A program made the position numbers and the translations under genes. Below are positions 69 to 23,659 of a stretch of DNA of 61,738 nucleotides, one piece after another. How positions within the stretch are numbered: the stretch's first letter is position 1; the number at the start of each line of letters is the position of its first letter. Below the pieces are notes generated by a model. The model did no database searches. It saw only the letters and a list, made by a program, of their open reading frames with translations, and was not told the origin of the DNA. The stretch comes from Clostridia bacterium (lineage in GTDB: Bacteria; Bacillota; Clostridia; Christensenellales; Aristaeellaceae). The stretch lies in assembly GCA_017429695.1 (NCBI GenBank), contig JAFROK010000011.1, positions 1 through 61,738 of the forward strand, given 5' to 3'.

Positions 69-941
69 ATGAGGATTTCGTTTTGGCAATTATCTCACTT
101 TGGGCTATATGCTGAAAGGTATGATTTTATTTACCGCTTACAAGAGATCGGACAGATCAAGAACCGATTCGCCAGATGGTTTGCGATATACTTCCCGGAA
201 TACTGCGAGGTATTCGGAAGTTATGAATCCAAGAGCAGCATGTTGCTGTTGAGAGTAGCGAGCACACCGGAGTCCATTGTGGCACTGGGTGTGGAAGGGA
301 TCTGCCGGATCTGGCGGGAGGCAAAAATCCGGGCTGTCGGAATGAAGCGGGCAACGACCCTGTATGAGACAGCCAAGAGGAGCATCGGTCACGACCAGGG
401 CATGAGTGCCGCCAAGCTCGAGATGGCATTGCTGTTGGAGGATTATGAGGCCAAGGCAAAGCAGCTTGCTTTCGTCATGGCAGCCCTTGAGAGCACATTG
501 CGGGAGATTCCGGAAGCGGAAAAACTGCTGGCAATCAAGGGAATCGGGATTATCTCTGTCGCAGGGTTTCTGGCGGAAGTCGGTGATTTAAGACGTTTCG
601 AATCGCCGAAACAGATCCAGAAGCTGGCAGGATTGTCTCTTCGGGAGAACAGTTCAGGCAAGCATAAGGGACAGACGACAATCAGTCGCCGGGGAAGGGA
701 CAAGCTCAGACAGGTGCTCTTCAATGCAGTGATCCCGCTGCTTGCAACGAACGAAGAATTCAGGTCACTGCACCAGTACTTTACGACCAGGACAGTGAAC
801 CCGCTGAAGAAGAAACAATCCGCTGTTGCCTTGTGCGGCAAGCTGATCCGAGTATTCTATGCAATCATGGTTCATAGTGTGGAGTATGACGGGAAAAAGA
901 TGCTGTCAGATATCCATCGTAATGAGACCGTTGTAGCATAG
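69..941 (+). pseudogene. IS110-family transposase, C-terminal part (N-terminal domain missing)
   Basis: The 290-residue product matches the middle and C-terminal part of IS110/IS1111-type recombinases. After about residue 27 it has the helical linker with a KNR...YFPEY motif. Residues ~155-235 form the Transposase_20 (IS116/IS110/IS902) domain, with IKGIG, FESPKQ, LAGL, the Ser-containing ENSSGK and GRDKLR motifs. The N-terminal RuvC-like DEDD domain, normally ~130 residues, is absent. The frame stays open leftward to the window edge, but those codons do not resemble that domain. The first ~25 residues also look unrelated, so I infer a truncated or rearranged, probably inactive gene. A long gene-free tail follows, as in elements that encode a guide (bridge/seek) RNA. 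An intact gene continuing left of the window with a divergent N-terminus cannot be excluded. Confidence 0.75.
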
Positions 942-6887: not shown

Positions 6888-8132
6888 ATGAAAATTGTTG
6901 TTGCCGGGACGGGATATGTTGGACTTTCACTGGCGGTGCTTTTATCAAAAAACAATGATGTTACTGCTGTGGATATTATTCCGGAAAAAGTTGAAATGAT
7001 TAACAAGTGGGAAAGTCCAATTAAGGACGAGTATATTGAAAAGTATTTCAAAGAACATACTGAAAGAGATCTTCATTTATCAGCTACAATAGATGGAGAA
7101 AAGGCATACGCATCCGCAGATTATGTTATCATTGCTGTACCGACGAATTACAATGTCAGGCAAAATTGCTTTGACTGTTCAGCGGTTGAAACTGTAATTG
7201 AATCAGTACTCAAAGCATCAGAAGATGCAATTATGGTAATCAAATCTACAATTCCGGTCGGATATACGCAAAAAATCAGGGAGAAATATAAAACTGATCG
7301 TATTATCTTTTCACCAGAATTCCTGAGAGAATCAAAAGCACTTTATGACAATTTATACCCGTCCCGGATTATTGTGGGATGTGATAGAAGCACAGAAGAA
7401 AAGGCAAAGGAATTTGCAGGTTTATTAGCAAAAAGCGCAGAGAAAAAAGATGTGGAAGTACTTATTATGGGTTCCACTGAGGCGGAAGCGGTGAAATTGT
7501 TTGCAAACACCTATCTGGCCCTTCGCGTTTCATATTTTAATGAACTTGATACTTATGCAGAAATGAAAGGCCTTAGTTCAGCTGATATTATCAGAGGCGT
7601 TTGCCTTGATCCGCGTATTGGCGATTTCTACAACAATCCAAGTTTTGGCTATGGTGGTTATTGCTTGCCGAAAGACACAAAACAACTGTTGGCAAATTTT
7701 GCGGATGTTCCAGAAGACCTGATTCACGCAATAGTTCAGGCCAACAAAACCAGAAAGGAATTTATCGCCAATCAGGTTCTTACAAAAGCCGGATACTATG
7801 GATATGGATACGCATCGGATGTTAATTATGATGTCGATATGGAAAAACATGTAACAATCGGTGTATATCGATTAACAATGAAATCCAATTCAGACAATTT
7901 CCGGCAGTCTTCTATACAGGGTGTTATGAAACGGATAAAAGCAAAAGGTGCAACCGTGATTGTATATGAACCAACGTTGGAAAACGGAACAACATTTTTC
8001 GGAAGCCTTATTGTGAATGACCTGGAAGAATTCAAACGATTAAGTGATTCGATTATTGCCAACAGATATGATCCTTGCTTAAACGATGTGCAGGAAAAAG
8101 TGTATACACGCGACTTGTTTAGGCGGGACTAG
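6888..8132 (+). CDS. ugd: UDP-glucose 6-dehydrogenase
   Basis: A 414-residue NAD-dependent enzyme that oxidises UDP-glucose to UDP-glucuronate in two steps. The Rossmann motif GTGYVG is at residues 7-12. Catalytic residues by family alignment are all present: Thr121 (KSTIPVG), Glu144 and Glu148 (SPEFLRES), Lys203 and Asn207, Cys259 (GGYCLPKD) and Asp263. The C-terminal UDP-sugar domain ends in an IIANRYD...KVYTRDLF segment. It resembles the short Ugd type rather than the WbpA-type UDP-GlcNAc dehydrogenase. AAAGGAG precedes the ATG. It feeds the glycan operon and is the obvious paralogue of the dehydrogenase half of the fusion protein at 12305-13774, which has lost most of these residues. Confidence 0.92.
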
Positions 8133-11126: not shown

Positions 11127-12296
11127 ATGCTGGATTTATTGAAAGCATCTTTGTGGGGCACTGAAAGCGCTATAGCAAGCAGGGAAGATTATTCAGAAAT
11201 GAAAGCCCATGCTATTGCTGCCTTACCCGCGAATGTTTTACCATGGACTAGTATGGATCCTGAGCTGCGGACAGAATGGAAAAAAACCATTATGCAGCAG
11301 TTGATTTCATATAATCAATATCTGTACGAACAGGAAAATCTGCCTATCACCTTCCCATATGTCATTTTAAAGGGAACATCTGCAGCAAAATACTATCCGC
11401 ATCCGGAATATCGAAAAATGGGTGATATTGATATAATGACCCGGAGAGAGGATTACGAAAATGCTTGCAGCGAACTTATAAAGTATGGATTTGTTGAGCA
11501 CATAAATAAAGAAGAAGAGGACTTCGGAAGACACAGGGGATTTTCAAAAAATGGTGTTGAGGTTGAAGTGCATGCTTTTTTCGCCTTGCTTAATGAGCCG
11601 AAACAAGCTGAGTATCTGGATGACTTAATCATTGAAAATATTACTCCATCCCACGAACTTCCGGATCTTGTAAATGGACTTGTCCTTCTTGAACACATTG
11701 CTCAGCATATGGAAGGTGGTCTTGGATTACGTCAGATTATTGACTGGATGATGTTTGTTGACAAATGTCTGTCAGATGAGAAGGAATGGTCGAATTTCAG
11801 GATGATGGCTCAGCGGATAGGATTGGAAAAACTTACTGAAGTAGTGACAAGAATGTGTGAAATGTTCCTTGGACTTGAAGAACATACGTGGTGTAGAAAT
11901 GTCGATGAAAAATCCTGCAAAGGTTTGATGGATTTTGTTCTTTCATGCGGAAATTTTGGAATAAAGCTAGTTGACAAGATTGGTCCGGGAGCAAATGTTT
12001 TGTCATATGCCAGAACGCCATTTGCCTTTATTCATCTGTTGCAGGAACGAGGGTTGGTGAATTGGAAGACAGCTCAAAAACATGCAGTCCTTCGTCCATT
12101 TGCCTGGTTGTATCAGATTGGCAGATACCTGAATAAAGGACTGGGGAGAAAGAATGCCATATCAGAACTGAAAGGGGAGTATGTTGCTGCCAAAGAAAGA
12201 GTGGCACTTTTTGATGCGTTAGGAGTTAAACAATCATCAAAAGGCCTTGCTGTATATCGCAATGGCAAGTATCAAAAGACATACAAAATGCCATAA
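11127..12296 (+). CDS. Uncharacterised nucleotidyltransferase-fold protein (PF14907-like)
   Basis: A 389-residue protein with the pattern of the uncharacterised nucleotidyltransferase family PF14907. FPYVILKGTSAAKYYPHPEYR is followed by KMGDIDIMTRRED, where Asp-Ile-Asp would bind metal, and a third acidic position follows in VEVEVHAFF. Relatives occur in polysaccharide clusters and in RiPP clusters near HPr-kinase-like and PqqD genes. Its substrate is unknown. It ends the plus-strand AT-rich operon, and its 3' end lies only 8 bp from the convergent regulator gene. It may serve the polysaccharide or the peptide locus that begins 1.6 kb downstream. GGAGAAGGG precedes the ATG. Confidence 0.7.
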   Translation: MLDLLKASLWGTESAIASREDYSEMKAHAIAALPANVLPWTSMDPELRTEWKKTIMQQLISYNQYLYEQENLPITFPYVILKGTSAAKYYPHPEYRKMGDIDIMTRREDYENACSELIKYGFVEHINKEEEDFGRHRGFSKNGVEVEVHAFFALLNEPKQAEYLDDLIIENITPSHELPDLVNGLVLLEHIAQHMEGGLGLRQIIDWMMFVDKCLSDEKEWSNFRMMAQRIGLEKLTEVVTRMCEMFLGLEEHTWCRNVDEKSCKGLMDFVLSCGNFGIKLVDKIGPGANVLSYARTPFAFIHLLQERGLVNWKTAQKHAVLRPFAWLYQIGRYLNKGLGRKNAISELKGEYVAAKERVALFDALGVKQSSKGLAVYRNGKYQKTYKMP

Positions 12297-12304
12297 TTGT
12301 TATA

Positions 12305-13774
12305 TTAGATTTTTGAGAAGAACAGATCACGGGTATAAACCTTATCAGTTACGTTATTCAGACAAGAATCGTATCGATTTGCGATGATGATATTACTTTG
12401 CTTCTTGAACTTTTTCAAGTCATTGATCACTCTGCATCCAAAGAAAGAAGAGCCGTCTTCCAATATCGGTTCATAAATAATTACAGTTAATCCGTTTGCT
12501 TTGATTTGTTTAATGATGTCCGGAACAACACTATCATGAAAATTGATAGAATCTTTTTCGGCTGTCAATCGAAAAAAGCCGATGATCACTTTTTTTTCTT
12601 TTGCTTCATTCGGCATATCATTTAACTCGGATACATTTGCTATTTCCAGTATCCGATCCACAATATATTCTTTCCTGAACTGGTTGCTATTTACAACTGG
12701 GGTAAGCATATCATGCAAAGCTGGATCTGAAACAGCAAGCAACTGGCGACTGCTTTCCGGCAAACAGAATCCGCTGTAGCCGAAGGACGGAGTGTTGCAC
12801 GAGGATCCGATCCTTGGATCCAGGCAGATACCGTCAATAATTTCATATGCATTCAGGCCTTTTGATTCCGCATAGGTATCCAGTTCGTTAAAGCAGGTGA
12901 TGCGCATTGCCAAAAACAAATTAGAAAAGAAAGCAATTGCTTCAGCCTCGGAAAGGCCGGTCATACGAATTTCCACATCTTTTTTGAGGATGGCATTCCG
13001 GAGAATATCTGCAAAATCCTTTGCACGATCATGGGCAGATTCGTTACAACCGACGATTATCCGACTTGGATACAAATTATCATAAAGCACTTTGGATCCC
13101 CGAAGAAAGTCAGGAGAGAATAGAACATTTCCAGCATCCAGCCTTTTACAGGTTGAGGCTGAAAAACCAACCGGGACGTGACTTCTGATAACAATTGTTG
13201 CATCAGGATTCGCGCAAAACGATGTTTCAATTACACTTTCAACAATGGCAGTATTAAATATGCCTTTTTTGGGATCATAGCCAGTTGGCACTGTAATAAT
13301 GATGAAATCTACATCTCTACAAGCAGAAAATCCATCGGTTGTTGCTGTCAGGTGCAGATCTGATCTTGTAAAGTACTTTTCAATATATTCATCCCGAATA
13401 GGACTGAGCCGCTGATTGATCATTTCCACTTTTCTGGAATTCTCATCAATGATTGTAACGAAATGATGACGTGAGAGCATAATGGCGACAGAGAGTCCAG
13501 CATAGCCTGCATCCCAAACAGCGATCTTCCTTGGATTAATATGCCGAAAAACCGGCTTTGTGTATTCGATAAAGACATCTGCCACATCAAACTGCAGCGT
13601 ATTGGCCAGACGAGTTAACTGATCAAGTGAAGGCATATATTCCTGGTTTTCGAGTCGGCAAAGCATAGAACGATTGATACCGGCTTTATCAGCCAGTTCC
13701 TGTTGTGTCAGATTTAGCTGTTTCCGATGGGATAAAACAGTTTCTGCCAATTTAGAAATGGAAAAGTTTTTCAT
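12305..13774 (-). CDS. XRE helix-turn-helix fused to a degenerate UDP-glucose-dehydrogenase domain
   Basis: ATG at 13774 is chosen because GGAGG lies 5-6 bases upstream; the in-frame ATG at 13786 has none. The 489-residue product has an XRE/HTH_3 domain at residues ~5-70 (LNLTQQELADKAG, RSMLCRLEN), then a full-length UDP-glucose-dehydrogenase-like region at ~82-489 closely resembling Ugd at 6888. In the first 53 aligned residues I count 31 identities. Residues aligned with catalysis are mostly lost: the first Rossmann Gly is Asp88, Thr121 is His199, Glu144 is Asp222, Glu148 is Gly226, Lys203 is Ala281 and Asp263 is Ser341. Cys337 and Asn285 remain, as do [21 protein letters not shown] and NPSFGY-like sugar-site segments. 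I infer a non-catalytic ligand-sensing transcription factor, divergent from the peptide locus. Confidence 0.85.
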   Translation of the reverse strand: MKNFSISKLAETVLSHRKQLNLTQQELADKAGINRSMLCRLENQEYMPSLDQLTRLANTLQFDVADVFIEYTKPVFRHINPRKIAVWDAGYAGLSVAIMLSRHHFVTIIDENSRKVEMINQRLSPIRDEYIEKYFTRSDLHLTATTDGFSACRDVDFIIITVPTGYDPKKGIFNTAIVESVIETSFCANPDATIVIRSHVPVGFSASTCKRLDAGNVLFSPDFLRGSKVLYDNLYPSRIIVGCNESAHDRAKDFADILRNAILKKDVEIRMTGLSEAEAIAFFSNLFLAMRITCFNELDTYAESKGLNAYEIIDGICLDPRIGSSCNTPSFGYSGFCLPESSRQLLAVSDPALHDMLTPVVNSNQFRKEYIVDRILEIANVSELNDMPNEAKEKKVIIGFFRLTAEKDSINFHDSVVPDIIKQIKANGLTVIIYEPILEDGSSFFGCRVINDLKKFKKQSNIIIANRYDSCLNNVTDKVYTRDLFFSKI

Positions 13775-13824
13775 GGATACCTCCAAAATGTGACGAATAA
13801 CAACAAAAATAGCTTAGATCATTC

Positions 13825-13853
13825 TTTACAACTTGTCAATATATCCCTATAAT
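13825..13853 (+). promoter_or_regulatory. Strong sigma-A-type promoter for the peptide locus
   Basis: TTTACA at 13825-13830 and a perfect TATAAT at 13848-13853 are separated by 17 bp, giving a start near 13860 and a ~30-nt leader to the radical SAM gene. A short palindrome ACAACTTGT (13828-13836) overlaps the -35 box and is a possible operator for the divergently encoded helix-turn-helix protein. Confidence 0.75.
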
Positions 13854-13888
13854 GTTTTTGTCCGGAACACGGAGAAAGGATTGCAGCG

Positions 13889-15040
13889 ATGGCAGTTGAT
13901 TTTGCGAACGGGTTTGAATTCCTGGAAGCGCTTCGCAAGCAGAACGGGAAACAGGAACAGAGTTACAGACCGTTTGCCCTGTACCTGGATGACAAGGCCA
14001 GAGAAAAAGGCGTTCCGCTGCACGGACAGTTTGAGTTGACACCATTATGCAACTTCAGCTGCAAAATGTGTTATGTGCACCTTGACAAGAATCAGCTGGC
14101 GGGCCGGGAGGTTCTGCCGGTTGAAAAATGGAAAGATCTGATGCATCAGGCCTGGGAAGCGGGAATGATTTATACGACGCTGACCGGCGGAGAATGCCTG
14201 GCCTATCCGGGGTTCGACGAAGTGTATCTGTATCTGCGCAGTTTGGGATGTGATGTTTCCATCCTGACGAACGGTTATCTTCTGGATGACCAGAGGATCG
14301 AATTCTTCCGGAAAAACAAGCCGTCAATGATTCAGATTACGCTGTATGGATGGAATGACGACGTTTACGAACGCGTGACCGGGCACCGCGCTTTCAGCAC
14401 TGTGGCTGAAAACGCCCGAAAGGCGATTGAGGCCGGACTGAGGGTAAAGATCACTGTTACGCCAAGCAAGTATCTGGGGGAGGATATCCTGGAAACCATC
14501 CGGACAGGCATGGGCATTACGAAGGAGTTTTCCATTAACGCCAATCTGTTTACTCCGCGGGAGGAAACAGGACGGGCCCAGGAACAGGTTGAAATGGACC
14601 TGGATCTTTATTTCCGGTGTAACAGGCTGCTGTATGAGTTGCATGGAGAGAGCCCCAGGGAGATTGACGAAGACAAACTTCCTCCGCCAGGCGGGCCTTC
14701 CCATGAGTGCGACAAATGCGGACTAAAATGCGGTGGCGGAAGATCCGGATTTGTGATCAACTGGAAGGGAGAGCTGCTGGCCTGTAACCGCCTGGATTAT
14801 CATATCTGCGCCTATCCGATGCAGGAGGGATTCAGGAAAGCCTGGGCCAGGATCAATGATCAGGCGAATCACTGGCCGAGGGTTCCGGAGTGCGAAGGCT
14901 GTGCGTATGAAAAGGTATGCTTTAACTGCGCTGCAAACATGCTCCTGTATGCTGCCCCCGGAAAAGTGCCGAAGGGGTTGTGTGAGATTTCGAAAATGTA
15001 TGTTCAGCATGGTTTCAGGCATATCCCGGAATGCGAATAA
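13889..15040 (+). CDS. Radical SAM/SPASM peptide-modifying enzyme
   Basis: A 383-residue radical SAM protein. The SAM [4Fe-4S] motif is C54-x3-C58-x2-C61 (TPLCNFSCKMCYV), followed by a TGGEC segment near residue 110 for SAM binding. The C-terminal third holds a SPASM-type cysteine set: CDKCGLKCGGG, LLACNRL, CEGCAYEKVCFNC and a final GLC, enough for auxiliary Fe-S clusters. SPASM enzymes install thioether, C-C or other crosslinks or epimerise residues in ribosomal peptides. Two small related peptides are encoded immediately downstream, so it is probably their maturase. There is no N-terminal PqqD/RRE domain; that function is in the 17824 gene. AAAGGA supports ATG 13889. The chemistry it performs cannot be told from sequence alone. 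Confidence 0.87.
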   Translation: MAVDFANGFEFLEALRKQNGKQEQSYRPFALYLDDKAREKGVPLHGQFELTPLCNFSCKMCYVHLDKNQLAGREVLPVEKWKDLMHQAWEAGMIYTTLTGGECLAYPGFDEVYLYLRSLGCDVSILTNGYLLDDQRIEFFRKNKPSMIQITLYGWNDDVYERVTGHRAFSTVAENARKAIEAGLRVKITVTPSKYLGEDILETIRTGMGITKEFSINANLFTPREETGRAQEQVEMDLDLYFRCNRLLYELHGESPREIDEDKLPPPGGPSHECDKCGLKCGGGRSGFVINWKGELLACNRLDYHICAYPMQEGFRKAWARINDQANHWPRVPECEGCAYEKVCFNCAANMLLYAAPGKVPKGLCEISKMYVQHGFRHIPECE

Positions 15041-15105
15041 CCAACTTGATTCATCTGACCGGCATCGTACGGTTTGTGAATAGAAAATACTGAAAGGAGA
15101 AAACT

Positions 15106-15303
15106 ATGAAGAAAGAGTACGAAGTTCCGAAGGCGGAGAAACTGGAGTTCAATTATTCAGAGGGTGTTACGGCGTCAAGTAGTTGCGGAGGCGCTTTCCA
15201 GAAGTATACGGACGGCGGCTATAACTGCCAGACCACTCCGACCGGCGAATGGTCAAATCCTTACTCTGATGTGATAGACGCGGCTGCAAATGGCGCAATT
15301 TAA
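15106..15303 (+). CDS. Putative RiPP precursor peptide 1
   Basis: A 65-residue peptide with a strong GAAAGGAG ribosome site 66 bp after the radical SAM gene. Its N-terminal 24 residues share a pattern with the next small gene: MKKEY, then P-x-AEK, then F-x-YSE-x-VTAS. I read this shared part as the leader. The remaining ~41 residues are Gly/Ser/Thr/Asn-rich with Cys28 and Cys41 and the segment GGYNCQTTPTG. It matches no precursor family I recognise. A leader ending near VTAS would leave a core beginning SSCGG; the cleavage site is inference. Confidence 0.75.
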   Translation: MKKEYEVPKAEKLEFNYSEGVTASSSCGGAFQKYTDGGYNCQTTPTGEWSNPYSDVIDAAANGAI

Positions 15304-15336
15304 TGAGCAGAATTTAATAAAGCGAGGAGAAAAACA

Positions 15337-15546
15337 ATGAAAAAAGAGTACATGAAACCCGAAGCGGAAAAAGTCATCTTTGATTATTCTGAGAACGTGA
15401 CCGCGTCCCGCACCTATACGACGACCGAACAATCAAATCCTGACTGGAATTGCAATATTCGCTATATATTTAATGATTCAGTGTCAGTATGCGGACAGGA
15501 CGGACACGACGTAACGCATGAGTACTGGCTGTGCGATAACAAATAA
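15337..15546 (+). CDS. Putative RiPP precursor peptide 2
   Basis: A 69-residue peptide, 33 bp after precursor 1, with GCGAGGAG ahead of the ATG. The leader-like N-terminus is nearly the same as in precursor 1 (MKKEY, P-x-AEK, F-x-YSE-x-VTAS), whereas the C-terminal part is different: RTYTTTEQSNPDWNC followed by two further cysteines near the end (VCGQDG and WLCDNK). Conserved leader with divergent core is the classic precursor-pair pattern. Both cores contain an SNP-x(1-2) segment and an aromatic-Asn-Cys (YNC/WNC). A strong terminator follows at 15585. Confidence 0.75.
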   Translation: MKKEYMKPEAEKVIFDYSENVTASRTYTTTEQSNPDWNCNIRYIFNDSVSVCGQDGHDVTHEYWLCDNK

Positions 15547-15584
15547 TCTTCGCAGACAGGAAAACGAAGAAACAGTTTTTTTGC

Positions 15585-15613
15585 TGGCGCCTCTTTCATG
15601 AGGCGCCATTTTA
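15585..15613 (+). terminator. Terminator after the precursor genes
   Basis: A perfect 9-bp stem TGGCGCCTC/GAGGCGCCA with loop TTTCAT is followed by TTTTATT. It lies 40 bp after precursor 2 and before the peptidase gene, so precursors may be transcribed in excess of the processing and export genes. Confidence 0.8.
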
Positions 15614-15622
15614 TTGTATAAT
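15594..15622 (+). promoter_or_regulatory. Candidate internal promoter for peptidase-exporter genes
   Basis: A perfect TATAAT at 15617-15622 lies directly after the terminator. The -35 position 17 bp upstream reads only TTTCAT and overlaps the terminator loop, so strength is uncertain. It would restart transcription 32 bp ahead of the peptidase start codon. Confidence 0.4.
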
Positions 15623-15653
15623 GATTTATCAAGTTTAGTTACAGGTGATTGCC

Positions 15654-16124
15654 ATGCGTCAGTCAATATCCGTTCAGGAATGGCATCGGCTTGCATCCGA
15701 AGGAGATGCGCCGCCTGCGCATATCACACTGAGCGGATATAGTATGAATCCTCTGATCCGCGGATACCGCGATTTTGTCACGGTGGTTCCTGTGCAAAGC
15801 ATGCCTGCAAAGGGCGATATCGTTATGATTTGTGAACCGTCTGAGCGCTATGTGATGCACCGGGTCTGGGACGTTCGGGATGGAATGATTCAGACCTGGG
15901 GAGACAACTGCTCCGAGCCGGATGGATGGTTTGCGCAGGAGAATATCTGGGGGAAAGTCGTATTAATCGAACGGGGCAGACACAGGATCGTTCCGGACCC
16001 TGAAAAAGGACTGAAATGGGCAAGATTCTGGCATAAGGCTGGGAAAAGCTATCGGCTGGTCCAGAGATATAAGAACGGCGTCCTCCACAGGATCAAAAAA
16101 CTGAGAGTGTGGGTGAAGAAGTGA
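15654..16124 (+). CDS. S24/S26-type Ser/His peptidase without membrane anchor (likely leader peptidase)
   Basis: ATG 15654 has AGGTG 6 bases upstream; a GTG at 15645 overlaps that site. The 156-residue protein has the signal-peptidase-type motif SGYSMNP with Ser30, and later YVMHRVWD with His69 where bacterial type I enzymes have Lys. This is the Ser-His arrangement of SipW/ER-type S26 enzymes. GDIVMI and WGDNCSEPDG are also family-like. No transmembrane segment is visible, so it is probably cytoplasmic, unlike true signal peptidases. Context with precursors, SPASM enzyme and exporter suggests it removes the leader peptide. Its stop overlaps the start of the ABC gene. Confidence 0.72.
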   Translation: MRQSISVQEWHRLASEGDAPPAHITLSGYSMNPLIRGYRDFVTVVPVQSMPAKGDIVMICEPSERYVMHRVWDVRDGMIQTWGDNCSEPDGWFAQENIWGKVVLIERGRHRIVPDPEKGLKWARFWHKAGKSYRLVQRYKNGVLHRIKKLRVWVKK

Positions 16125-19666: not shown

Positions 19667-21145
19667 TCACTTTACAGTAAAACCGGAAGTTTTTGAACCA
19701 GTCCACATGTCCAGTGTGCTGACTTCATTTTCCAAGGCAGCGTTATATGAATCAAGACCCGATTTAGAGATCCATACTTTTGTCAGCTGTGGTGTATCTT
19801 TGAACATTTCTCCCAAGCCTTTGCAGGCAGCGGAGATGTTTCCTGTTTCATAGTAGATCCCGTTTCCTGCTCCGTCCCATGAATCGTTTGTTATGGAAAT
19901 AAAAGTCCATCCAGAAAGATCAATTTCATGGAGATTTGTGGCACGGAACATCTCAGCGGCTGTTTTCAGATTATCTGTATTCCATCCAGATAGATCCATT
20001 TTGCCGTAGTTATCGCCAATAAACGAAGTGGCATCATTTAGCCAACCGCCAACATCAATGAGACTGGCTGTATTCCAATGGGAAACATCGCCAATCGATT
20101 TGAGTTTTTTATTATCATCAAACATGCAATACATTGTTTTGACGCTGGAAACATCCCAACCTGAAAGATCAAGAATCCTCAGATTGAAGTTATCACAAAA
20201 CATGTGATTCATGGATTCAACTTTTGAGACATCCCAGTTCGCGACATCATAGTATGTCATTTCTCCTGCACCATAGAACATGCAAGTCATATCTGTAACA
20301 TTGGAAACATCCCAGTTTCCGAGACCGACTATTTCCCGTAGTTGGCCATTACCAGTCCAGTTGTCTCCAACCTGGAACATGCATATCATCATTGTTACTT
20401 TACTTGTGTTCCAATGGGACACATCGATTATCTCAAGAGAAGTCGCACCCGAAAACATCATGCTCATATCCGTGACATTTGAAGTATCCCAATATCTTAA
20501 GGCAAGAGCATCTGTCAGACTGCTTGTTCCGCTGAACAATCCGTACATATCTGTTACATTCGAAGTATTCCAATCAGCCAAAGCAGATATATCTTTCAGT
20601 GAAGAAGTATTTTTAAAAGTCAGGACCAGCATGGCTACGTTATGTGTATCCCAATTTGCCAGCGGAGAGATATCTGCCAGTGACGAATTATTGACAAACA
20701 TACCATTCAGCGAAATGACTTTGGAAGAATCCCAATCTGCAAGACCGGATATGTCTGCTAAAGCTGCATTATTGGCAAACATATACCCGGAATCAGGGTT
20801 CATTTTAATTGATTTGCCTTCTGTGTAGAAATATATGATACCTGCATCATTCTCATTATCAAAAAAAATATAAATTGGATTATCGGAATCAGCGGTAGAG
20901 ACGGTGTTGGCTTCGGATGGGACGAAATCTGTAGGAAGCGAGTCAGCTATACGGATTGCTTTAATGTCACTTGTTCTTGCCCGATACTCTGTTTCTGTGC
21001 CTGCTGCAAGCGATTTCATTTTACTGTTAATTATAGCACCGGTTTCCAGCATCGAATCAGCATTGGCCAAAGAATACATAAAAATAGTGAGAACGAAAAC
21101 AAATGCAAGAAGAGCAAGTGATTTGACTGTTGTTTTACAAATCAT
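19667..21145 (-). CDS. BspA/DUF285 repeat surface protein
   Basis: ATG at 21145 follows AGGAGG by 5-6 bases. The 492-residue product begins with a Sec signal peptide (MICKTTVKSLALLAFVF...SLANADS). Residues ~110-440 contain about ten DUF285 repeats of the form W(D/N)-x-SNVTDM-x2-MF, as in WDTSNVTDMSMMF and WDVSKVESMNHMF. Such leucine-rich-like repeats occur in bacterial surface proteins implicated in adhesion. There is no LPxTG or other anchor at the C-terminus, so it may be released or held by another domain. It lies 22 bp after the YcaQ gene on the same strand yet is much more AT-rich, suggesting separate acquisition. Confidence 0.82.
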   Translation of the reverse strand: MICKTTVKSLALLAFVFVLTIFMYSLANADSMLETGAIINSKMKSLAAGTETEYRARTSDIKAIRIADSLPTDFVPSEANTVSTADSDNPIYIFFDNENDAGIIYFYTEGKSIKMNPDSGYMFANNAALADISGLADWDSSKVISLNGMFVNNSSLADISPLANWDTHNVAMLVLTFKNTSSLKDISALADWNTSNVTDMYGLFSGTSSLTDALALRYWDTSNVTDMSMMFSGATSLEIIDVSHWNTSKVTMMICMFQVGDNWTGNGQLREIVGLGNWDVSNVTDMTCMFYGAGEMTYYDVANWDVSKVESMNHMFCDNFNLRILDLSGWDVSSVKTMYCMFDDNKKLKSIGDVSHWNTASLIDVGGWLNDATSFIGDNYGKMDLSGWNTDNLKTAAEMFRATNLHEIDLSGWTFISITNDSWDGAGNGIYYETGNISAACKGLGEMFKDTPQLTKVWISKSGLDSYNAALENEVSTLDMWTGSKTSGFTVK

Positions 21146-21167
21146 AACAATCCTCCTGATCTTTTTC

Positions 21168-22379
21168 TTATGGACTGCCATTGAAATCAAAATAATGATA
21201 ACTGCAATTGTTGAATTTCGCAAGGCGCTGAACAGATTTTTCGATCTTGGCAGATAGTTCCTTTTTCTGATGAATACCGGGCTCGAGCCATATGTTTTGT
21301 ATGGTAAGGGTGCCGGCTTTTTTGTCTGCCTTTGGCTCTATGCGGCCGATGAGACGGTCACCGTAGAGCATCGGGAGGACGTAATAGCCGTATTTCCGTT
21401 TGACAGCCGGGGTGTAGATTTCCCAGGAATATTGATAATTCCAGATGGCTTCGATCAGTTTACGATCCCATAGCATGGGATCCAGCGGGGCCAGGAATTC
21501 AAGGCGGGGCTTGAACATTTGCTGACCTGATGTGACAGATTCCAGGATGGGGAGATCTTCGGTTAGCATGTAGAGCGGGAAGCGGATGCCTTCCACCTGG
21601 ATCGGGCAGATCATGCTTTCTGTTTCCAATTTGGCGAAGGCGGCTTCGCGCTGTGCGGTATCCATGTTGATACCCAGCCATGCATCGGAACGGCGGTTCC
21701 AGAGAAGACCGATAGCGCCGATTCTGCGTTTTACGCGCCATGCCAGCCAGGAAGCTTCATCCGGGCATGGATCCGGAGCTGTCAGTAGGGCATGGGACAG
21801 ATATTTATCAGTCAGGTCATAGTATTTCCGTGAACCGGATTTGTGGTGGATCAGGAGGACGCCATCGGTATAAAGCTGTTCCAGGACAGAACGGGCTGCC
21901 AGAGATTCCTTATGCCAGTGACCGCTCCAATGCATGGAGGAATGCCAGAAGATGGTTCCTTCAATGGGCAGGGTATCGCTGCTGACGGGACCGTTTTTCC
22001 GGATATAGTCGATGGCTTCCTTTTCCAGTTCGGGAATGCCGGGGAAGTGCCGGCCGTGGGCGATGCTGTTTTCCCGATAGCGGGTAAAATACGGCCAGTC
22101 CTCGCTGGGCCAGATAGATAGTTCCTTATCCGCGTAGTCTACGAGGAGGTGGTCCTTGTAAAGAAGATCCTGCAACATCTGCTTTTTGAAGTTTTTGACC
22201 CGGGACTGGAGTGTCAGTTCGGCATTTTTGCCGCAGACGTCCACCGGGTCATATTGGATGCAGCCGGCCTGACGGACATACTGATAAGCACCGTCTTTAT
22301 TGATAAAGCGGTGCTCTCCGAGAAGTCCCTGTTTGAGCAGGATGAATTGCCGGGCCTGGTCGATGGTGATGGTCTGCAT
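21168..22379 (-). CDS. ycaQ: YcaQ-like winged-helix DNA glycosylase
   Basis: A 403-residue protein of the HTH_42/YcaQ family. The N-terminal region has TIDQARQFILLKQGL and CIQYDPVDVC, the latter corresponding to the Q-x-D catalytic segment of YcaQ/AlkX-like glycosylases. The central winged-helix region includes WSEDWPYF-like and GPVSSDTLP segments, and the end has DPMLWDRKLIEAIW and YYVLPMLYGDRLIGR. Family members unhook interstrand crosslinks and excise bulky alkylated purines. The protein is presumably cytoplasmic and acts alone. Upstream lies the tandem repeat array; downstream, the repeat surface protein may be read through from the same transcript. Confidence 0.8.
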   Translation of the reverse strand: MQTITIDQARQFILLKQGLLGEHRFINKDGAYQYVRQAGCIQYDPVDVCGKNAELTLQSRVKNFKKQMLQDLLYKDHLLVDYADKELSIWPSEDWPYFTRYRENSIAHGRHFPGIPELEKEAIDYIRKNGPVSSDTLPIEGTIFWHSSMHWSGHWHKESLAARSVLEQLYTDGVLLIHHKSGSRKYYDLTDKYLSHALLTAPDPCPDEASWLAWRVKRRIGAIGLLWNRRSDAWLGINMDTAQREAAFAKLETESMICPIQVEGIRFPLYMLTEDLPILESVTSGQQMFKPRLEFLAPLDPMLWDRKLIEAIWNYQYSWEIYTPAVKRKYGYYVLPMLYGDRLIGRIEPKADKKAGTLTIQNIWLEPGIHQKKELSAKIEKSVQRLAKFNNCSYHYFDFNGSP

Positions 22380-22579: not shown

Positions 22580-23608
22580 TTATCCGATAACCATCGCTTT
22601 GGAAGCTTCCTGGGCCTGGATGATCCTATCGCACCAGGCGTCGAATTCCGGGTCTTCCTGCTGGCATTCCGGATGGGCGAGGATGTAGTCCAATGCTTTC
22701 CGGACACCGATGCTGAAGGGGATGGTCGTCTGCATGTTGGGAACTATCCGTTTCAGTTTTCTGTTGTTGAAAACAACAGAAACCGCTTTGTCACCAATCA
22801 GGCCGCCTTCCAGGTCATAGTTATATGGCGCGCCAACGGCCGCCAGATATTCAGATGCCACATGGTATGGATGCAGCTTTACGCCCAGCGCGTCTGCGAT
22901 GGTGGCATAAATCTGGTCCCAGGTCAGGGTTTCATCTCCGGTAATCTGGAAGGCTTCGCCAATGGCGTGACGGTTGCCCATCAGGCCGATGAAGCCGACG
23001 GCAAAATCCGTGTTGAAGGTCAGCGTCCAGAGGGAAGAACCGTCACCGTGGATGATGACGGGCTTTTCTTCCATGATGCGTTTAATGACCTGCCAGGAGC
23101 CTTTTTTGCCGTGAACGCCCACCGGGATGCTCCGCTCGTCATAGGTATGGCTGGGGCGGACGATGGTGACCGGGAAGCCCTCCTCCCGGTACTTTTTCAT
23201 CAGGAAATCCTCGCTGGCAATCTTGTTCCGGGAATACTGCCAGTAAGGATTGCTGAGGGCCGTACCTTCCGTAATTACATAGCTGGCTGCCGGTTTCTGG
23301 TAGGCTGAAGCAGAGCTGATGTAGATATACTGCCGGGTCTTATCCTTGAACAGCCGGTAATCCCGCTCCACATCTTCCACAACGAAGCCGATGAATTCGC
23401 ATACGGTATCGAAGAACATACCCTTCAGTTTTTCGGCTGTTTCCGCTTCATTATGGACATCCGCGATAATCTGGTGCACGCCTTCCGGTACAACTGTTTT
23501 CCGGTTGCCCCGGTTCAGCAGCCACACCTCCCAGTTCGGATCCTCCGCCAGCCGTTTAATGATGCCTGTGCTGATGGTTCCCGTTCCGCCGATAAACAAT
23601 GCCTTCAT
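22580..23608 (-). CDS. NAD-dependent epimerase/dehydratase-like short-chain reductase
   Basis: ATG 23608 has GAGAGGAG upstream and puts the Rossmann motif at the N-terminus (MKALFIGGTGTISTG). The 342-residue product has YISSASAYQK and YWQYSRNK at the extended-SDR catalytic positions; the canonical Tyr-x3-Lys is represented by Y-SRNK. C-terminal RPSHTYDER, HGDGSSLWTLTF and PYNYDLEGG resemble the isoflavone-reductase/CSP41-like branch of NAD-dependent epimerases. Substrate unknown; such proteins modify sugar nucleotides or bind nucleotides without catalysis. It stands alone, divergent from the helicase gene, with a candidate promoter at 23660-23690. Confidence 0.78.
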   Translation of the reverse strand: MKALFIGGTGTISTGIIKRLAEDPNWEVWLLNRGNRKTVVPEGVHQIIADVHNEAETAEKLKGMFFDTVCEFIGFVVEDVERDYRLFKDKTRQYIYISSASAYQKPAASYVITEGTALSNPYWQYSRNKIASEDFLMKKYREEGFPVTIVRPSHTYDERSIPVGVHGKKGSWQVIKRIMEEKPVIIHGDGSSLWTLTFNTDFAVGFIGLMGNRHAIGEAFQITGDETLTWDQIYATIADALGVKLHPYHVASEYLAAVGAPYNYDLEGGLIGDKAVSVVFNNRKLKRIVPNMQTTIPFSIGVRKALDYILAHPECQQEDPEFDAWCDRIIQAQEASKAMVIG

Positions 23609-23659
23609 ATTGTTTTTCTCCTCTCTGCCGGAAAATATGTCCAATTAATATCTGCGACT

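Follow-up and report, generated by a model that had tools for sequence, protein, structure and literature searches.

Several enzymes, among them BirA, PutA and NadR, carry a DNA-binding domain of their own and control their own genes, and regulators of the XRE/Cro-CI type act at paired sites. In BzdR an XRE helix-turn-helix (HTH) is fused to a shikimate-kinase-like domain without detectable activity and the protein acts as a regulator; the loss of activity is described there as essential to becoming a regulatory domain, the active intermediate is a synthetic chimera made in the laboratory and the effector is known (PMC3602430). The gene described in this study lies in a stretch of 61,738 nucleotides from a Clostridia bacterium (contig JAFROK010000011.1, hereafter the window) and encodes an XRE HTH fused to a UDP-glucose dehydrogenase (Ugd) region.

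Its likeness to BzdR lies in the N-terminal XRE HTH placed on an enzyme domain that, judged by sequence, is catalytically dead, and is a likeness in manner of working only; the domain is Ugd and not shikimate kinase, the fusion is not a member of the BzdR family and, unlike the laboratory-made intermediate of BzdR, intact HTH-Ugd fusions occur naturally, and two such fusions share the chromosomal position of the window gene. With this intact family the window copy shares the architecture and an upstream repeat but not the catalytic residues. BirA, PutA and NadR resemble the intact family, although they are other enzymes with other folds, and in the window copy the enzymatic function is gone. 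Compared with Ugd of known structure (3pid, 1dli) the homology is full-length, with an N-terminal HTH added and T, E, E, K, D and the first Rossmann G lost, while XRE/Cro-CI regulators (Pfam HTH_3) are alike in the HTH and the inverted-repeat sites but differ in the C-terminal domain, which here has the Ugd fold. A literature search at title and abstract level, with most subscription papers outside its scope, found no mention of an HTH-Ugd fusion. What we would file as new is an enzyme-derived XRE regulator with catalytically intact relatives still extant, the kind itself being known from BzdR. The gene, its parts and the neighbouring stand-alone ugd are as follows.

12305–13774, minus strand: HTH-Ugd pseudoenzyme gene, 489 aa, ATG at 13774
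13565–13774, minus strand: XRE helix-turn-helix segment, residues ~1–70 (Pfam HTH_3), recognition-helix motif GINRSMLCRLE
12320–13531, minus strand: Ugd-like half, residues 82–485 (Pfam), catalytic residues lost
6888–8132, plus strand: stand-alone ugd, catalytically intact, one of two found in the window genome

Pfam places HTH_3 at residues 17–64 of the fusion (E 4.5e-11, 43.1 bits against a cut-off of 23), UDPG_MGDP_dh_N at residues 83–249 (E 1.5e-21) and the central Ugd domain at residues 276–350 (E 8.1e-18). The C-terminal UDP-binding domain is sub-threshold (24.0 against 30) but the C-terminus nevertheless aligns to its end with Ugd structures, the whole protein aligning full-length to Ugd of known structure (3pid, residues 82–486, E 4e-110; also 1dli), and the three-domain architecture of Ugd is present. 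The open reading frame is real and consists of an XRE HTH and a full-length Ugd region minus its catalytic residues.

When analysing the active site, Pfam and alignment confirmed all that the preliminary description had reported of it, that is an XRE HTH and Ugd-like fusion with G88D (the first Rossmann Gly), T199H, E222D, E226G, K281A and D341S and with C337 kept; N285 is retained as well and K340 is additionally replaced by E. Aligned to Ugd structures and 127 relatives, the seven-residue signature, whose T, E, E, K, N, C and D positions we take to be catalytic, reads HDGANCS in the window fusion against TEEKNCD, five of the seven being changed. Two further fusions, in genomes G301 and G290, are altered at these positions and read TDEKDCS and ADERDVY, respectively, C337 being V in the latter. 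In a set of 124 intact sequences 171 Ugd positions are near-invariant (conservation of 98% or more); of these positions the window copy keeps 124, that of G301 133 and that of G290 104, against 166–171 in ten listed intact relatives, and the comparison suggests that the Ugd fold seems to be still under selection while the active site is not. That a residual dehydrogenase-like activity acts on another substrate is highly improbable; the G301 copy keeps T199, E226, K281 and C337, but the window copy is without the active-site T, E, E, K and D and the G290 copy is without the Cys too.

When a collection of 84,980 species genomes was searched by pattern, 455 relatives were obtained, and the best 80 of the 455 were all two-domain fusions, from Lachnospiraceae, Ruminococcus, Enterococcus columbae, Anaerococcus, Erysipelotrichaceae, Spirochaetales and others. 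A Ugd match was present in 134 of 300 genomes drawn from the family of the window organism, many of them fusions. The search for the same two-domain architecture, proposed in the preliminary description, was borne out in that homologues exist; that the architecture is common and normally intact is a point it had missed. Among 130 distinct fusions fetched 127 have an intact TEEKNCD, the exceptions being those of the window, G301 and G290, all three within the genus of the window, and the idea that the whole family consists of pseudoenzymes was rejected on this count. In the 45 fusion genomes searched for further family members (two with partial fusions were left out) the fusion was the sole match to the central domain of the family in 31, and from this together with the intact residues the usual HTH-Ugd looks like a working enzyme. 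HTH-Ugd fusions are, by their residues, common in Firmicutes and normally catalytically intact. Some of the intact fusions (L047, L074, L115 and others) look self-regulating, and one Ugd without an HTH, L023 (G132:C1:1078329-1079540), falls in the tree amid the fusions of the genus and may have lost its HTH.

The window fusion had been said to match closely the ugd 4 kb away, which overstates the case, the identity being 51%; its closest kin are the HTH-Ugd fusions at the same chromosomal position, with 61–64% identity. A recent duplication of the neighbouring ugd was rejected on the same figure and on the place of the free ugd elsewhere in the Ugd tree. In this tree, which took 52 of 128 rows, left out the G295 copy L036 and was built without the signature columns, the three pseudoenzymes form one clade (SH-aLRT 95) in which long branches meet. 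The comparison supports a descent of the window gene from the intact HTH-Ugd family.

A survey of neighbours, covering 77 of the 80 loci (57 of 72 upstream neighbours were scanned), found the next gene co-directional with the fusion at 54 of 77, and of these 54 it was an epimerase in 34, galactokinase-like in nine and another Ugd in three. A sugar-nucleotide signal would make sense because an epimerase is so often the next gene in the intact family, and the preliminary description had envisaged a sensor of UDP-sugar or NAD that reports the metabolite state to the glycan or peptide locus. F223, R225, R321, R467, R482 and D483, which we presume to be ligand-binding, are kept in all three pseudoenzymes. 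However, the window copy is changed at further presumed contact positions (K281A, K406E, Y326C and G334S) and at the first Rossmann Gly, C337 is V in G290, and the three pseudoenzymes do not have one common pocket, changed or kept, and on balance we regard such a sensor as rather unlikely.

The window fusion is divergent from a radical SAM peptide locus, arranged as follows.

13889–15040, plus strand: radical SAM maturase gene, divergent from the fusion (Pfam Radical_SAM, E 3e-21)
15106–15303, plus strand: candidate precursor peptide 1, 65 aa
15337–15546, plus strand: candidate precursor peptide 2, 69 aa
15645–18912, plus strand: signal-peptidase-like (below the NCBIfam cut-off), ABC transporter and PqqD-domain genes, in the same order in G301 and G091

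Four genomes, those of the window, G301, G295 and G091, have the fusion back to back with a radical SAM gene, behind which come signal-peptidase-like and ABC transporter genes, and the PqqD-domain gene is next in the series in the window, G301 and G091. A nucleotidyltransferase-like (NTP_transf_5) gene on the other side adjoins the fusion in the window and G301 and is one or two genes off in G295 and G091. In G290 the contig stops just inside the divergent radical SAM gene, of which only the first part is seen, and the other flank is not common to the rest. The fusions of G295 and G091 are intact and each is the sole family member found in its genome (G295 is 62% complete), while further Ugds accompany the pseudoenzymes, two intact ones in the window genome, one in G301 and a second HTH-Ugd, intact, in G290.

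Both precursor candidates of the window share a leader (MKKEY..P.AEK) and similar leaders are found in G091, G295, G305 and G287, the G287 peptide bearing a run of SW repeats; the peptides of G091 and G295, tested against NCBIfam models, gave no match, and no Rfam family was found in 12000–15700. A DUF285 repeat protein (window 19667–21223, minus strand) lies beside the peptide locus and a relative (L155 8087–9436) is found in G091, ~4 kb away from the second of its radical SAM genes, and an IS110-type transposase (window 69–941) is located at the edge of the polysaccharide locus.

To compare the constraint on the two halves, identities were calculated separately for the HTH (residues 1–71) and the Ugd half. 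The window HTH is 87–90% identical to those of its four same-locus relatives, the figures for HTH and Ugd half being 87 and 56% towards G301, 90 and 52% towards G290 and 90 and 60% towards G295. Among the three pseudoenzymes the HTH is 87–90% and the Ugd half 52–56% identical, and between the pseudoenzymes and the intact same-locus copies the values are 87–90% and 53–68%; the two intact same-locus copies share 90% of the HTH and 87% of the Ugd half between themselves. Towards the intact other-locus fusions the order is reversed, the intact same-locus copies being 55–61% identical in the HTH and 81–84% in Ugd. This pattern by locus indicates that every copy at the peptide locus maintains its HTH and that the Ugd half drifts only in the pseudoenzymes. 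By Fisher's test the contrast between the halves is not significant when the pseudoenzyme pair is set against the same-locus intact pair (p 0.07) and is significant against the other-locus intact pair (p 2e-9).

Between the window and G301 pN is 0.28 against a pS of 0.74 in the Ugd half and 0.07 against 0.81 in the HTH, only pN and pS being quoted as synonymous change is near saturation. A gene left to decay, without function, after a separate ugd had taken over would agree with the long Ugd branches of the pseudoenzymes (1.04 in the window copy, and 0.57 and 1.43, against a median of 0.11) and with the finding of more than one family member in 3/3 pseudoenzyme genomes against 11/42 other fusion genomes searched. 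Nevertheless the HTH is conserved, all three frames are open and free of stops, pN is well below pS in both halves and the promoter and sites are conserved, which makes this explanation decidedly unlikely. The unique, decaying gene without conserved homologues that the preliminary description had named as its counter-case is not what was found, there being two more changed copies and many intact ones.

Analysis of the intergenic region between the fusion and the radical SAM gene (13775–13888), named beforehand as a likely target, revealed two operator-like sites and two predicted promoters.

13789–13805, inverted repeat: operator-like site O1, TGTTGTTATTCGTCACA on the minus strand, starting 5 nt past the predicted -10 of the fusion promoter
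13811–13839, minus strand: predicted fusion promoter with -35 TTGACA, 17-nt spacer and -10 TAAGCT
13825–13853, plus strand: predicted radical-SAM promoter with -35 TTTACA, 17-nt spacer and -10 TATAAT, 19 nt from O1
13853–13869, inverted repeat: second, weaker operator-like site O2, TGTTTTTGTCCGGAACA, over the predicted radical-SAM start and 64 bp from O1

At 5/5 fusion/radical SAM loci the fusion promoter shows this layout, with O1 beginning 5 nt beyond its predicted -10. Twelve promoters of radical SAM or precursor genes could be compared, excluding one unrelated two-mismatch match (L137 6713) and one repeat, and ten of them have O1 19 nt from the -35 and O2 over the start; in the other two (one of G295, and G195) O1 is exactly 10 nt closer and O2 is missing. 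The mismatches of O2 over the promoters total 15 at the true offset against at least 53 at the 84 other offsets tried. Seven of the twelve carry O1 with no recognisable fusion promoter, namely those of radical SAM genes in G295 (two), G091 (two), G305 and G195 and of the precursor gene of G287, and at five of these seven the O1/O2 pair recurs, at dispersed peptide loci of relatives. Among the 19 radical-SAM homologues in the genus ten have O1, seven lack it and two were not assessed; a search for the O1 motif in G267 found none.

Sites 63–64 bp apart occur in the window and in 8/8 fusions of the two lineages of the genus (shuffle mean 0.04, max 1), but in only 2/94 other fusions. The second of these lineages, with four genomes and a different locus, has its own pair at that distance. 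In L139 (6652–9831, genome G163), of this second lineage, the HTH-Ugd gene and a gene for a GGDEF-domain response regulator point away from each other, with a strong inverted repeat in between, and by BLAST a neighbour in L140 and L141 is similar to this response regulator; a link to c-di-GMP is possible.

With at most one mismatch the O1 pattern is noisy and gave 39 matches in 45 genomes, 11 of them at these promoters, against 13 for a reversed-pattern control, and of the other 28 matches six were inspected and none stood at a peptide gene, one being perfect (G195:C12). In its conserved form the site has a single match in the window (at most three mismatches) and a single one in the window genome (at most one mismatch), and it is absent from the polysaccharide operon, which the preliminary description had proposed as a target and to which a metabolite sensor might have reported. 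Looser half-site matches number 38 in the window against 25 expected (2/100 shuffles were as high), some of them inside polysaccharide genes. A perfect TGTTG-N7-CAACA repeat at 22762–22778, inside the coding frame 22580–23644 (minus strand), is probably due to chance. The five fusion loci served to define the O1 pattern, the O2 and pair patterns were drawn up with the sequences in view, and related promoters share ancestry; it is the position and spacing, not the pattern alone, which carry the argument for the sites.

Upstream of the wider family a 17-bp inverted repeat, TGTYRYNNNNNRYRACA, was found within 100 bp and with at most one mismatch in 62 of 92 non-redundant fusions, 42 being perfect (shuffle mean 1.5, max 5 in 50 runs), and O1 stands likewise shortly upstream of the start codon of the window fusion. 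The pattern was written after inspecting this set, but in a later set the repeat was present in 11/18 fusions (shuffle mean 0.3, max 2 in 200 runs); this set comprised 27 new fusions of which eight were unparsed and L250 was without upstream sequence, and within the 18 L252 repeats L232. None of 13 stand-alone ugd genes had the repeat upstream. A perfect TGTTGCTnnnAGCAACA was found in 7/20 fusion genomes scanned, every time at the HTH-ugd gene. The half-site type, TG or CA with Ser or non-Ser, matches HTH residue 36 in 57/59 when 12 mixed sites are left out, and by independent pairs 3–5 agree and none disagree (median p 0.125, at low phylogenetic power). This covariation, together with the presence of the repeat at HTH-ugd genes, gives the strongest grounds here for taking the fused HTH itself as the probable reader of the repeat.

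These scans also gave one-mismatch matches elsewhere, of which by our own estimate about half a match per genome is expected by chance. In G066 and G185, whose near-identical fusions count as one observation, both of the other lineage, a second site with one mismatch precedes a further radical SAM gene that has a sugar epimerase as neighbour, which is suggestive only. In L214 and L213 an operator-like site with one mismatch (~1501–1517) is flanked by a sugar epimerase-like gene and by a different radical SAM gene, so that sugar-nucleotide and radical SAM genes are found together a second time. Five further matches were off-target (G163, G295, G291 and G094 among them).

The sites may be thought to belong to another XRE regulator, the HTH-Ugd gene merely standing beside one of them. 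In G195, G305 and G287 (89, 60 and 79% complete) sites stand at peptide promoters though no HTH-Ugd was found, and as a joint assembly loss is unlikely at this completeness a second reader of the site may exist. Against this stand the perfect matches, confined to HTH-ugd genes in the 20 fusion genomes scanned, the covariation with residue 36 and the 0/13 among stand-alone ugd genes, and we hold it quite unlikely that the sites are foreign to the fusion.

As to the sign of regulation, the centre of O1 lies at about -63 in ten of the promoters and about -53 in the remaining two, a shift of exactly one helical turn, which together with the seven peptide promoters that carry O1 in the absence of a fusion promoter would fit an activator of the radical-SAM promoter that represses its own gene. 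On the other hand O2 covers the predicted start in 10/12 promoters, and the radical-SAM promoters look able to work unaided because their predicted -10 and -35 hexamers match TATAAT and TTTACA at five or six of six positions. Activation is possible but on the unlikely side, and a plain activator was given up as the leading model, the O2 sites over the starts making repression more likely.

That the gene encodes a pseudoenzyme on a DNA-binding domain and most likely a regulator, as first supposed, is supported by these comparisons. We consider it fairly probable that it is an enzyme-derived transcription factor, probably a cooperative repressor of itself and of the peptide operon, in which the Ugd fold is kept for oligomerisation or for a ligand. 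An ancestral HTH-Ugd, both dehydrogenase and its own regulator, would have stood between the polysaccharide locus and a peptide (RiPP-like) locus, and in genomes with a separate intact Ugd it would have lost catalysis and stayed as a dedicated regulator. The HTH dimer would bind the 17-bp inverted repeats, O1 covering the start of the fusion gene and the weaker O2, 64 bp or about six helical turns off, that of the divergent radical SAM operon. Since Ugd enzymes form dimers or larger assemblies, the dead Ugd half could gain a role as bridge between the sites, the fold oligomerising the protein and holding O1 and O2 together; the constant spacing of about six turns fits a protein bridging two sites. 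Occupancy would most likely repress both promoters, and this sign is the simpler one in that each of the two predicted starts is overlain by O1 or O2. Candidates for the input signal are a bound sugar nucleotide, contact with active Ugd, or none, the ideas of an oligomer and of a ligand pocket being taken from general knowledge of Ugd.

Taken as a whole, we propose tentatively that a widespread, apparently undescribed family of self-regulating HTH-Ugd proteins may, at one site in one genus, have given rise to dead-enzyme regulators of a radical-SAM peptide regulon, acting via operator pairs 64 bp apart on an oligomeric Ugd scaffold. A single genus has both intact fusions and putative dead-enzyme regulators at one and the same locus, with likely target sites that are readable, which makes the transition testable stepwise. 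From the sites a group of radical-SAM peptide clusters can be predicted to have a regulator, and the wider family, seen in records of many gut and rumen Firmicutes, would constitute a new class of enzymes that form UDP-glucuronate under their own control.
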